Shown piece after piece: positions 26,046 to 42,975 of a stretch of DNA of 64,000 nucleotides (position 1 is its first letter; the number at the start of each line of letters is the position of its first letter). This DNA comes from an uncultured Flavobacteriales bacterium (GTDB lineage: Bacteria; Bacteroidota; Bacteroidia; Flavobacteriales_D; Sanyastnellaceae). The notes below the pieces were generated by a model. It saw only the letters and a program-made list of their open reading frames with translations. It was not told the origin of the DNA and ran no database searches. The translations under genes were made by a program, and so were the position numbers. The stretch is taken from NCBI GenBank assembly GCA_938085105.1, contig CALKGK010000002.1, positions 27,194-91,193 on the forward strand. The letters run 5' to 3'.

Positions 26046-26192
26046 CCTTTTCAGTTTGCGGGGGCTCTCGGTGGGGCGCGGAGGTGGACGGGCGCGGCAT
26101 GTCCTTTTCCGTTCGCGGGGGCTCTCGGTGGGGCGCGGAGGTGGACGGGCGTGGGGCGACCTTTTCCGCTTGCGGGCGCGCGCGGGTGGGGG
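26046..26192 (+). repeat. GC-rich 57-bp tandem repeat (two full copies, third partial)
   Basis: Copies start at 26046, 26103 and 26160, each with CCTTTTC. Copies 1 and 2 are identical over about 36 bases in the middle (GGGGGCTCTCGGTGGGGCGC and following); copy 3 keeps only the first part. GC content is far above the flanking genes. Copy 1 contains GGACGGGCGCGGCATGTCC (26086-26104), the core palindrome also found at 35230 and 42880. Open frames across it are Gly/Arg-rich artefacts. It lies between the barrel gene's terminator and gyrB. Confidence 0.85.
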
Positions 26193-26371
26193 CTTTTTGT
26201 TTGAAAAGGGGAATTTATCAACAATTGTGAATATTTCGTCAGTATTGACAGGGGTTTCAGGCTGTATTCGGCGAAGGAAATCGTATCTTTATGCTGCATT
26301 AAATTGCCGTGGAAAATGGCGATTGGATGACGCATTTTTTAATTCAATTTCTGAACAGAAAGGATCTCAAT

Positions 26372-28321
26372 ATGAGTGAAGAAAATAAGAAGAATTATGG
26401 GGCTGATAGTATTCAGTCTCTCGAAGGAATGGAGCACGTACGTATGCGTCCTTCCATGTACATTGGTGATGTTGGCGTACGAGGACTGCACCACTTGGTG
26501 TATGAGGTAGTAGATAACTCCATTGATGAGGCTTTGGCCGGTCATTGCGACTACATCAAGGTGACCATCAACGAAGACAACTCCATCACAGTGGAAGATA
26601 ATGGTCGGGGTATTCCTATCGACATGCACAAGAAAGAGGGTGTATCTGCACTTCAGGTGGTGATGACCAAAATTGGTGCTGGTGGTAAGTTTGATAAAGA
26701 CTCTTATAAAGTTTCCGGTGGTTTGCACGGTGTGGGTGTTTCTTGTGTGAATGCCCTTTCAACCCATTTGCGCGCCGAAGTTCGACGCGACGGAAAGAAA
26801 TACGAACAAGAGTATTCCATTGGTAAAGCCCTCTACCCCGTTCGTGAGATCGGTACGTCAGAGGAAAGCGGAACTACAGTAACTTTTGTACCGGATGCGA
26901 GCATTTTCGAAACAACCATTTTCAGTTATGATACCCTCGCCGGACGTTTGAGAGAGCTCGCTTTCTTGAACAAAGGGATTGTTCTTCTTCTGGAAGACCA
27001 AAGAACCACAGAGGAAGATGGAAAATTCAAAGGAGAAAAATTTCAGTCTGAAACAGGACTTGAAGAGTTTGTTCGCTATATCGACAAAAACAGAATGCCC
27101 ATCATTGAAGAAGTGATTCACATCGACGGTGAAAAGAGCGGTATTCCTGTGGAAGTAGCGATGATCTATAACGATTCCTACAACGAGAATTTGCATTCCT
27201 ATGTCAATAACATCAACACGCACGAGGGGGGTACTCACTTGTCTGGTTTCCGTCGTGGGTTAACCAACACTTTGAAAAAGTATGCCGATTCTTCTGGCTT
27301 GTTGGACAAATTGAAGTTTGAAATTAGTGGAGATGATTTCCGTGAAGGACTCACCGCCATTATTTCGGTGAAGGTTGCTGAACCTCAGTTTGAGGGTCAA
27401 ACAAAAACCAAACTCGGAAACAGAGAAGTAACAGCACCTGTTAGTCAAGCAGTGAGTGAAATGCTTGCTGATTACTTGGAAGAGCACCCGAACGATGCGA
27501 AAACCATTGTTCAAAAGGTGATTCTTGCCGCACAAGCTCGTCATGCAGCAAGAAAAGCGCGTGAGATGGTGCAACGTAAGACCGTGATGGTTGGTGGCGG
27601 TTTGCCAGGAAAATTGGCCGATTGCTCGGAAAAAGATCCTACGGTTTGTGAATTGTTCCTCGTCGAGGGAGATTCTGCGGGTGGAACTGCAAAACAAGGT
27701 CGAGATCGTGCTTTCCAAGCCATCATGCCTTTGAGAGGTAAGATCTTGAATGTGGAAAAAGCAATGCACCACAAGATTTTCGAGAACGAAGAAATCAAAA
27801 ACATTTACACCGCACTTGGTGTGAGCATTGGAACAGAAGACGATGCGAAAGCCCTAAACTTGTCCAAACTGCGCTACCACAAGATCGTGATCATGTGTGA
27901 TGCCGATGTCGATGGTTCTCACATTGAAACCTTGATTCTCACTTTCTTCTTCAGACACATGAGAGAGATGATTGAGAATGGATACATCTACATCGCTACT
28001 CCTCCACTCTATCAAGTGAAAAAAGGAAGCAAGTCTGCCTACGCTTGGAACGATGATCAACGCGACCGTTTGATTATGGAAATGAAGGGAGCAGGAACAG
28101 AAAGCAGCGTTGGTGTTCAACGTTACAAAGGTCTTGGGGAGATGAACGCTGAGCAACTTTGGGACACCACAATGAACCCAGAAGAAAGAACGCTTCGTCA
28201 AGTAACCATCGATAATGCCGCCGAATGTGACCACATCTTCAGCATGCTCATGGGCGATGAAGTTCCTCCACGTAGAGCCTTCATTGAAGCCAATGCTAAA
28301 TATGCGAAGATTGATATTTAA
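26372..28321 (+). CDS. gyrB: DNA gyrase subunit B
   Basis: ATPase subunit of the type II topoisomerase that introduces negative supercoils; works with GyrA (not in this window). The 649 residues show the GHKL ATP site ([36 protein letters not shown]), the transducer domain, the Toprim motifs [17 protein letters not shown] and [12 protein letters not shown], and the C-terminal [20 protein letters not shown]. The [20 protein letters not shown] stretch and length favour GyrB over ParE. Start: ATG at 26372 ([19 protein letters not shown]); the frame can be extended upstream, but GyrB proteins begin near this point. TATCTTTA at 26284-26291 may be its -7 box. A strong terminator follows. Confidence 0.97.
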
Positions 28322-28363
28322 TCAACTTTGCTCTTGAGTCTTTCGGCTCTAAAATGATCTTAT

Positions 28364-28401
28364 AAAAATCCCCACTTCATTGCTGATGTGGGGATTTTTT
28401 T
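28364..28401 (+). terminator. gyrB terminator
   Basis: Twelve-base-pair stem AAAAATCCCCAC/GTGGGGATTTTT with an ATTGC-containing loop and a T-run, 43 bp after the gyrB stop. Confidence 0.9.
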
Positions 28402-28453
28402 TGATTGGGTTCTTTGAAGCTAAAATCCATTTGGCGGTGATTTATTCCAAAAC

Positions 28454-28490
28454 AAAAAAGCAGAACAACCTAAGGGATGTCCTGCTTTCT
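28454..28490 (-). terminator. Terminator of the RhlE-type helicase gene
   Basis: On the minus strand a stem AAAGCAG/CTGCTTT with additional pairing near the loop, then six T, 25 bp beyond the helicase stop codon. Confidence 0.8.
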
Positions 28491-41413: not shown

Positions 41414-41421
41414 TAATTTTC
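41414..41421 (+). promoter_or_regulatory. -7-like box of ftsE, likely leaderless
   Basis: TAATTTTC, seven of eight positions of TAnnTTTG, ending 4 nt before the ATG at 41426. Confidence 0.4.
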
Positions 41422-41425
41422 AAGC

Positions 41426-42133
41426 ATGGAAACAGCGCACACCGTTCAGATCAAACAACTGCAAATTGCCCAGAAAGAGAACCTCATTTTGAAAGATGTG
41501 GACCTTGAAATTGCTGCAGGCGAGTTTGTTTACCTCATTGGAAAAACCGGTAGTGGTAAAAGTAGTTTGCTCAAAACGCTTTATGGTGAATTGAAGGTAA
41601 AAGACGGCAGCGCCAGTGTTTGTGGCTATGAGCTAAATGGATTGAAGAAAAAGAACATTCCGTTTTTGCGAAGAAAATTGGGCATCGTTTTTCAAGATTT
41701 TGAACTGCTCACCGATCGAAACGTGCACGATAACCTCAAATTTGTTTTGAAAGCTACCGGCTGGAAAAGCAAAAGCGAGATGAAGGAACGCATCGACGAG
41801 GTGCTCGCTAAAGTAGGTTTGGACACCAAAGGCTACAAGATGCCCTATGAACTGTCCGGCGGAGAACAACAACGTGTAGCCATTGCCCGAGCTTTGTTGA
41901 ACGAGCCCGAATTGATTTTGGCAGATGAGCCCACCGGAAACCTTGATCCTGCCACCACTGAAGGAATCCTGAAACTCTTGTTCAGCATTTCTGAAGGTGG
42001 AAAAAGTGTGATCATGGCTACCCACGACTACGCCAGCATGAAACGCTTTGAAGCGCGAACTTTGGTGTGCATGAACGGCGAGTTGAAAGACCGCTCACAA
42101 GTCAACTACCCCACAGATTTTGCCTCCATTTGA
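41426..42133 (+). CDS. ftsE: Cell-division ATP-binding protein FtsE
   Basis: ABC ATPase that with FtsX controls peptidoglycan hydrolysis at the division site. The 235 residues contain Walker A GKTGSGKSSLL (about 39-49), the FtsE-like block LRRKLGIVFQDFELLTDRNVHDNLKFVL, the signature LSGGEQQRVAIARAL, Walker B LILADEPTGNLD and the H-loop ATHD. The FQDFELLTDRNVHDN segment points to FtsE rather than LolD. No ftsX gene is adjacent, so the partner is encoded elsewhere. The stop codon overlaps the TTG start of the following glycosyltransferase (TTGA). Confidence 0.9.
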   Translation: METAHTVQIKQLQIAQKENLILKDVDLEIAAGEFVYLIGKTGSGKSSLLKTLYGELKVKDGSASVCGYELNGLKKKNIPFLRRKLGIVFQDFELLTDRNVHDNLKFVLKATGWKSKSEMKERIDEVLAKVGLDTKGYKMPYELSGGEQQRVAIARALLNEPELILADEPTGNLDPATTEGILKLLFSISEGGKSVIMATHDYASMKRFEARTLVCMNGELKDRSQVNYPTDFASI

Positions 42134-42858
42134 GTAAAGCGCTCTCAATAATCGTCCCCGTTTACAACGCAGCGAAGAGCATTTCCCAAACCCTTCACTC
42201 CATCTGTAATTTGCCAAAAGATTGGGTGGAAATCATCGTGATTGATGGCGAATCGCACGATGAATCGCATACCATTATTTCGGAGTTCATGGTGAGCATT
42301 GATCATTTGATCGTGGCCAAAGACAAAGGGGTTTACGACGCAATGAACAAGGGATTAAAGATCGCTTCTGGAAGGTGGTTGTTGTTCTTAGGAGCAGACG
42401 ATGTTTTAGAAGACAAATCACTTTTGCTATCGATGATTGAGCAACCATCGGGGAAAGAACGTTTGCGCATCGCTGGTGTGAAGAACACGGATGCAGATCA
42501 CTCTAGAACTCCGGAGTTCTATCCTCCAAGGTGGGACAAAAGCCTCTTTTGGCGAAATACTGCTCACCATCAAGGCATCCTCTACCATCGGAGCTTATTT
42601 GAACAGTGGAAATACGAACTGCGCTATCCGATTTTAGCAGATTATCACCTCAACTTGAAGCTATTTCAAAAAGGAATTACGGCCCAATTGTTTGCTGGAA
42701 CCTTGGTGATCAGCAAAGCACAAGGATTGAGCAAACGCTTCGACATGGCACTGTACCAAGAAGAATGGCGGGTGAAAAAAGATGTGGTTCAGGGGGTGAA
42801 AAAGTGGTTCCAACCTACTTGGTTGGTGTTGAAGTTTTTGTACAAAAAGGTTTTTTGA
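42130..42858 (+). CDS. Family 2 glycosyltransferase
   Basis: Cytosolic-face sugar transferase (GT-A fold) for cell-surface polysaccharide. The 242 residues open with LSKALSIIVPVYNAAKSISQTLHSI, the GT2 nucleotide-sugar site, and have the metal-site region DKGVYDAMNKGLKIASGRWLLFLGADD typical of WcaA/colanic-acid-type enzymes. The only in-frame start near the conserved N-terminus is the TTG at 42130, overlapping the ftsE stop by 4 bases; the upstream frame lies within ftsE. The product ends with a basic, hydrophobic tail (WLVLKFLYKKVF). The donor and acceptor are unknown. A four-copy palindrome array follows directly. Confidence 0.88.
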   Translation: MSKALSIIVPVYNAAKSISQTLHSICNLPKDWVEIIVIDGESHDESHTIISEFMVSIDHLIVAKDKGVYDAMNKGLKIASGRWLLFLGADDVLEDKSLLLSMIEQPSGKERLRIAGVKNTDADHSRTPEFYPPRWDKSLFWRNTAHHQGILYHRSLFEQWKYELRYPILADYHLNLKLFQKGITAQLFAGTLVISKAQGLSKRFDMALYQEEWRVKKDVVQGVKKWFQPTWLVLKFLYKKVF

Positions 42859-42865
42859 GGGGGGC

Positions 42866-42975
42866 GAGGACGGGTGAGCGGACGGGTGCGACACGTCCTT
42901 TTCGGGACGGGTGCGACACGTCCTTTTCGGGGACGGGTGCGACACGTCCTTTTCAGGGACGGGTGCGACACGTCC
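42866..42975 (+). repeat. Tandem array of the dispersed palindrome (four copies)
   Basis: GGACGGGTGCGACACGTCC occurs exactly at 42880-42898, 42905-42923, 42931-42949 and 42957-42975, each followed by TTTTC and 1-2 bases, a 25-26 bp period. A partial copy (GGACGGGTGAGC) starts at 42868. Each core can fold (GGACG/CGTCC plus GT/AC with one mismatch). The array fills the gap between two convergent glycosyltransferase genes, and the TTTTCA of its last copy supplies the stop codon of the minus-strand gene. Confidence 0.9.

Follow-up and report, generated by a model that had tools for sequence, protein, structure and literature searches.

Repetitive extragenic palindromic sequences (REPs) and REP-associated tyrosine transposases (RAYTs) are well described. 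The intrinsic (Rho-independent) terminator is a GC-rich hairpin followed by a T-run that is found mostly at gene ends. The present analysis concerns a 19-nt hairpin that recurs in a 64,000-nt stretch of DNA, hereafter the window, from an uncultured Flavobacteriales bacterium of the Sanyastnellaceae (assembly GCA_938085105.1, contig CALKGK010000002.1, positions 27,194 to 91,193). The hairpin most probably belongs to a REPtron, that is, to a REP family likely mobilised by the only RAYT of the genome, a TnpAREP-like enzyme whose gene adjoins copies of it. The hairpin is dispersed in its own genome and absent from the other genomes searched, it adjoins the RAYT gene, towards which its one-sided tag points, and two relatives show an equivalent arrangement with palindromes and tags of their own.

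Canonical REPs carry the motif GT[AG]G, which is thought to guide the cleavage site (passages of PMC8266576). According to the same passages, the E. coli enzyme tolerates no change of this tag, the Stenotrophomonas enzyme loses most cleavage when the tag is changed, and altered tags shift the cleavage site of the Marinomonas enzyme. Subclass 2.6 of TnpAY1, from Bacteroidetes, is described in parts of PMC6006769 as having “atypical secondary structures” without GT[AG]G, copies of which occur elsewhere in the genome. Palindromic, intergenic REPs tagged with CGTC are reported from Bacteroidetes among others (sections of PMC3733652).

The preliminary description of this DNA had placed six copies of the hairpin in the window, and all six are exact; in 100 dinucleotide shuffles, the mean number of copies with up to three mismatches was 0.02 and the largest was 1. 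The copies, their tandem surroundings and one further hairpin that bears on their reading are as follows (positions of the window).

26011..26031, plus strand: strong, terminator-like hairpin with a T-run after it, distinct from the REP copies, between the gene at 24106-25983 and copy 1
26046..26191, plus strand: 57-bp tandem unit in 2.5 copies, containing the hairpin
26086..26104, plus strand: putative REP hairpin copy 1 (GGACGGGCGCGGCATGTCC), with the tag TTTTC at 26105-26109
26143..26161, plus strand: decayed seventh copy in the second 57-bp tandem unit, with four mismatches, the 3′ arm broken and TTTTC kept
35230..35248, minus strand: putative REP hairpin copy 2, with TTAAC in place of TTTTC
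42868..42879, plus strand: half unit heading the array, with the 5′ arm GGACGGGTGAGC and without the 3′ arm
42880..42898, plus strand: putative REP hairpin copy 3, tag TTTTC
42905..42923, plus strand: putative REP hairpin copy 4, tag TTTTC
42931..42949, plus strand: putative REP hairpin copy 5, tag TTTTC
42957..42975, plus strand: putative REP hairpin copy 6, tag TTTTC

The GC content is indeed far above that of the surroundings, as had been noted (0.74 at 26040-26190 and 0.65 at 42866-42984 vs 0.45 for the window), and the window has no match in Rfam at gathering scores.

The window copies are not alone. The genome-wide search that had been proposed for further copies revealed 20 intact ones in 13 intergenic gaps of the own genome (G000), followed by TTTT in 19 cases and by TTTTC in 17; this genome is a draft in 99 contigs, in which some copies may be hidden. 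A strict pattern matched 11 places in the own genome and none in 59 relatives (1/60 genomes), and a slightly wider pattern matched 14 places in the own genome and none in a sample of 398 other genomes of the order. With a loose hairpin-plus-TTTT pattern, the own genome gave 22 matches vs two for the reversed pattern, and the 59 others gave 0-4 each, with up to eight reversed. A covariance model built from the 20 copies recovered all of them at E<1e-5, with no extra match at that level, and in 29 other genomes nothing matched it below E 1e-3; three weaker matches in the own genome (E 0.009-0.17) were left uncounted. In samples of unequal size, 367,318 bases of the own genome yielded 11 14-mers that recur at no fewer than three noncoding places, and 259,486 bases of the sister genome G001 yielded none. 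The earlier suggestion of a spreading, REP-like genomic element is thus supported by its number and dispersal, by its confinement to this genome among those searched, and by its position beside the only Y1-type transposase gene.

Copies also lie in arrays with spacings of 13, 19, 26 and 57 bp, in which intact hairpins persist amid decayed units. Such arrays could be explained by local GC-rich tandem repeats that arise by replication slippage at unconstrained gene ends and are shared by recombination, with the RAYT as a bystander, and the presence of other GC-rich repeats in the same genome agrees with this explanation. It is nevertheless very unlikely, considering that single copies without other close units occur (L075, L084), that the 5-nt tag is present on one side only, and that the pairing of a RAYT with a palindrome recurs in three further genomes. 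A rule of array decay starting at the 5′ side, with the last unit left intact, is true for the window array at 42868, L078, L082 and L083; it was dropped, as it fails at 26143 and as L077, L080 and L081 are mixed.

Regarding the enzyme, Pfam Y1_Tnp has a single match in the own genome, above the Pfam cut-off: the 163-aa product of a minus-strand gene on contig C48. Beyond its stop, 34 bp separate this gene from the nearest intact hairpin, which belongs to an array with three intact units and several decayed ones, and a rough model that assumes 2800 gaps gives a chance of about 0.009 for such an adjacency. The best NCBIfam family is REP_Tyr_transpos (REP-associated tyrosine transposase, NF047646; E 9.1e-15), with a score of 54.8 bits that misses the curated cut-off of 80 bits. 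The protein contains HLH (H74, H76) and YIRNNP, i.e., the HuH motif and the tyrosine of YIxxNP. A profile of eight family proteins matched E. coli TnpArep (4er8) with a whole-sequence E of 8.9e-5 in an alignment that covers both motif regions, each stretch alone being weak (0.043 and 4.7); the single RAYT sequence gave no match to 4er8 at E 0.01. Scanning of genome contigs with the RAYT returned 17 loci in several phyla, the best 33-34% identical, and a homologue is present in 23 of 114 genomes of the family.

The tag was analyzed by orienting the copies, grouping them by place and expressing the flanks as information in bits, with 10 positions on the 5′ side in the own genome. The own-genome set comprised 14 groups with 21 copies from a looser pattern, one of which is the reverse reading of the near-symmetric L081 copy. 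TTTTC on the 3′ side carries 2.0, 1.8, 1.5, 1.5 and 1.4 bits, and no position on the 5′ side exceeds 0.5. TTTTC had been reported after five window copies, with the copy at 35230 deviating; this was reproduced. Two relatives have other bases at this position, namely CC[TC]CA in G081 (19 groups; 1.9, 1.6, 0.7, 1.8 and 1.5 bits) and GTGTC in G002 (five groups; 2.0, 2.0, 2.0, 1.1 and 2.0 bits). In all three genomes, the copies adjoining the RAYT turn the tag towards its gene. The strand opposite the T-run reads GAAAA-GGACGTGCCGCGCCCGTCC, with the tag 5′ of the hairpin, as GT[AG]G is in canonical REPs; therefore, the T-run is best read as a REP tag. As it occupies the position of T-run-free tags in two relatives, the T-run alone is no evidence for a terminator.

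The flanks were inspected at seven RAYT loci of genomes from the family. The gene lies among palindromes in G004, in G081 (two loci) and in G002 (L070), and the palindrome sequences differ between these genomes; at another locus of G002 (L051), a single hairpin-like sequence is present at the end of the RAYT gene. Three of these RAYT-side palindromes, all but that of the second G081 locus, were each searched in 15 genomes. The G004 palindrome occurs at eight places in G004 and one in G008, the G081 palindrome at 40 places (19 groups, including one tandem array of 13) in G081 only, and the G002 palindrome at five places in G002 only; therefore, each is dispersed essentially within its own genome. 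As seen by eye, the RAYT gene at L049 (contig C2 of G081) lies between two inverted palindrome arrays, in which the outer units are one-armed and the unit nearest the gene is intact.

The sister genome G001 carries a RAYT in the equivalent place, between an SPFH-domain gene and a 379-aa gene. The flanking neighbours are 95% and 91% identical to those of the own genome and the RAYT 42%; therefore, the enzyme diverged fast or was replaced. The G001 protein (L046) has NIHHQP where YIRNNP is expected, and it may be inactive or replaced. The idea that the sister is without REPs since its RAYT lost the tyrosine was dropped, as the protein has a tyrosine one residue before that position and as a different palindrome is present in the gyrB gap. 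Three syntenic gaps of G001 were inspected, two of them without a palindrome and the third with a different one. In the short glycosyltransferase gap (65% protein identity) there is no palindrome. The GGACG hairpin is likewise missing from the gyrB gap (94% protein identity), which contains repeats of another palindrome, GACCCCNNNGGGGTC (L100 3808-4017), which occurs at one further place of G001 (L165 3527) in 285,964 sampled bases.

The stem of the hairpin consists of GGACG/CGTCC plus GY/RC with one G.A mismatch; in the TGCGA version, the T/A pair is left unpaired in the computed fold. The five-pair stem and the single mismatch thus agree with the preliminary description, and the last pairs, given there as GT/AC, are amended to GY/RC. 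The loop-closing pair is C-G in 14 of the 20 genome copies, U-A in five and U-G in one; four of the five U-A copies share one array, so the change represents few independent events. Folding energies of the copy types range from -7.3 to -16.1 kcal/mol, the commonest repeat hairpin having -7.8. Sixteen of the 20 copies retain the G.A mismatch. In E. coli, REPs require a stem mismatch and the enzyme loses activity upon its repair, although selection on the bases concerned was only moderate, as given in portions of PMC8266576. The kept mismatch is odd for a terminator and fits an enzyme that reads stem irregularities.

Placement relative to genes was scored for the 13 gaps with simple ORF (open reading frame) calls. 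Within the window, the copies lie between genes, as had been claimed, relative to the longer ORFs and provided that short overlapping ORFs crossing the gaps are discounted (e.g., 26023-26379, 118 aa). The neighbours of copy 1 are an ORF of 625 aa that has no Pfam match and a gene of the gyrB type; those of copy 2 encode a hutH-like aromatic amino acid lyase and the ATPase of an ABC transporter, and the array at 42880-42975 is flanked by two converging glycosyltransferase genes. Seven of the 13 gaps are converging, four are co-directional and two are at a contig border; there is no divergent gap among those with both neighbours known. REPs in general are reported to prefer converging and co-directional gaps (part of PMC3733652). 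The copies had been described as always on the strand of the upstream gene. This is true in the window, and in 12/13 gaps of the genome some copy lies behind a gene on that gene's strand. Genome-wide, the rule is weaker. Either orientation counts as downstream in a converging gap, so only the co-directional gaps test it. Three of these four have gene-sense copies only, the fourth (C48, L081) has one copy each way, and on C98 (L078) a copy lies on the opposite strand, in front of the sole visible neighbour. With these contrary copies, the strand rule that emerges from the mapping is a tendency.

These features bear on the suggestion of a terminator, i.e., a stereotyped intrinsic terminator in which the hairpin and T-run end transcripts and which spread by gene conversion or duplication because it is useful. 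The TTTT after almost every copy, one covarying pair, the predicted folds and the prevalence of copies behind same-strand genes are what such an element would display. As the whole explanation, it is unlikely. A terminator scan listed one of the six window copies (26086), and the region 25500-44500 contains 21 terminator-like sites vs 21.8 in shuffled sequence; the stem mismatch is mostly kept, the T-run is short, the tag position is occupied by CC[TC]CA or GTGTC in two relatives, and the gaps at L081 and L078 contain contrary copies. In three of the 13 gaps (window 26011, L076 4499 and L081 ~4866), a stronger hairpin with a T-run (-10.9 to -12.9 kcal/mol vs the -7.8 of the commonest repeat hairpin) is interposed between the gene and the repeat. 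The pure terminator reading, examined by the loose pattern, folding and the terminator scan, was set aside, as it leaves the one-sided, genome-specific tags unaccounted for. Some copies would be good terminators by their sequence, for example that at L075, with a full 8-bp stem, six T and a position 25 bp behind a stop codon, and termination is a possible side effect of REP copies.

A sub-case of the REPtron explanation combines both functions: the REP is borne by the RAYT, its tag happens to be T-rich, and inserted copies persist because they function as terminators. The T-run, the folds and the strand preference speak for it as they do for the pure terminator, together with the frequency of copies behind genes and the intact hairpins that persist among decayed units. 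The retention of copies at gene ends is also predicted for any REP by purging elsewhere. This combination is a plausible though less than even possibility. A more specific proposal is that the RAYT-REP guide tag changes between species of the family (TTTTC, CC[TC]CA, GTGTC) and that here the REP, once its tag had switched to a T-run, became a mobile, ready-made terminator, planted behind host genes by its own enzyme; this is doubtful, although conceivable.

In the proposed REPtron mechanism, the RAYT, by homology an HuH/Tyr nuclease for single-strand DNA, would bind the hairpin when it is exposed as a single strand, e.g., at replication forks, with the tag bases serving as a guide in place of GTAG. 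The enzyme would then copy or move the hairpin into other gaps, where tandem growth after insertion would produce arrays. Insertions within genes or promoters would be lost to selection, which may be why copies are located at gene ends. As a secondary effect, copies that lie downstream of a gene and have their T-run on its coding strand might act as weak intrinsic terminators or as 3′-end hairpins that protect mRNA.

Several observations weigh against this mechanism and against the REPtron explanation as such. No strain pair shows a fresh insertion, and copies could also be spread independently of the RAYT, by gene conversion or slippage. Twenty copies are few for a REP family, such families usually having over 100 (parts of PMC2817692). 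The array beside the own-genome RAYT is one-sided, the 196-bp gap on the other side of the gene being without either arm, and GT[AG]G is absent 5′ of the hairpin, where GAAAA is found instead. The 5′ flank is mildly conserved in G081 (last two bases, up to 0.8 bits) and reaches 1.3 bits in G002, with a wide null at n=5. The tag of the G004 element is unreadable, as its palindrome is symmetric and the flanks disagree at the places inspected. No palindrome array was seen at three of the seven RAYT loci (G001, G007 and L051 of G002), and beside the G001 RAYT there are neither copies nor an array despite the shared position; the palindrome in the G001 gyrB gap, GACCCCNNNGGGGTC, is a different one. 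In addition, two of the five G002 groups lie in divergent gaps, so placement at gene ends is not general; placement in G081 was left untallied (18 of 19 groups looked at, with ORFs overlapping the copy in seven).

Other repeats were encountered in the same genome. Immediately before copy 2 in the hutH gap, an A-rich tandem array of GCAAAGC/GCGAAGC units with periods of ~18 and 36 extends over 35278-35401. At the end of contig C93 (L013 1536-1658), a GC-rich 26-bp tandem repeat in 4.7 copies reaches the contig end and adjoins a copy of the hairpin. The GC-rich repeat AGGGCCCGCGAGGG occurs at four separate places in the sampled own genome (window 1108 on the plus strand, L177 9528, L180 12827 and L191 7116) and is possibly a second dispersed family. 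The repeat CTTCGGCTCCGCTC is likewise found at four places of the sampled own genome (window 40573 on the minus strand, L174 11492, L186 1594 and L082 1817).

In the literature searched, no REP with a T-run tag or with tags differing among close relatives was found; the supplementary table of PMC6006769, which could hold one, was not covered. Enzymes of one family beside palindromes whose tags differ from genome to genome constitute natural variants with which the guide model could be tested. For terminator prediction, the case is a warning that what looks like a gene's terminator, a hairpin and T-run downstream of it, may instead be a mobile repeat.

Regarding the known systems, the element shares with intrinsic terminators a GC-rich hairpin with a T-run located mostly at gene ends, and it differs from them in the kept stem mismatch, the short T-run, the dispersed, genome-specific sequence and the tag that is not T-rich in two relatives. 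Like the CGTC REPs of PMC3733652, as described in the sections used, it is palindromic and intergenic and contains the bases CGTC. Assignment to this group was rejected, as CGTC is paired within the stem, the stem begins with GG/CC instead of AT pairs, and a RAYT gene is adjacent. The resemblance to subclass 2.6 of TnpAY1, as far as the consulted parts of PMC6006769 describe it, lies in flanking structures without GT[AG]G that have copies elsewhere in the genome; the printed motifs differ, being DHLH, WV and YIRNNP here vs NH[LIV]H, WQ and YIH[QN]NP in Table 1 of that paper. The preliminary description had found no named family for the element, and this no longer stands: it can be placed as a REP/RAYT-like element whose tag differs from GT[AG]G. 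Compared with the canonical REP/TnpAREP system (the REPtron of E. coli, Pseudomonas and Stenotrophomonas), TTTTC (GAAAA on the other strand) takes the place of GT[AG]G, the copies number 20 and the array is on one side of the gene. Shared with that system are a short, imperfect, intergenic palindrome with a one-sided tag at its foot, a location mostly behind genes or between converging genes, the vicinity of a single-copy Y1 HuH transposase gene, and a REP family of its own for each enzyme.

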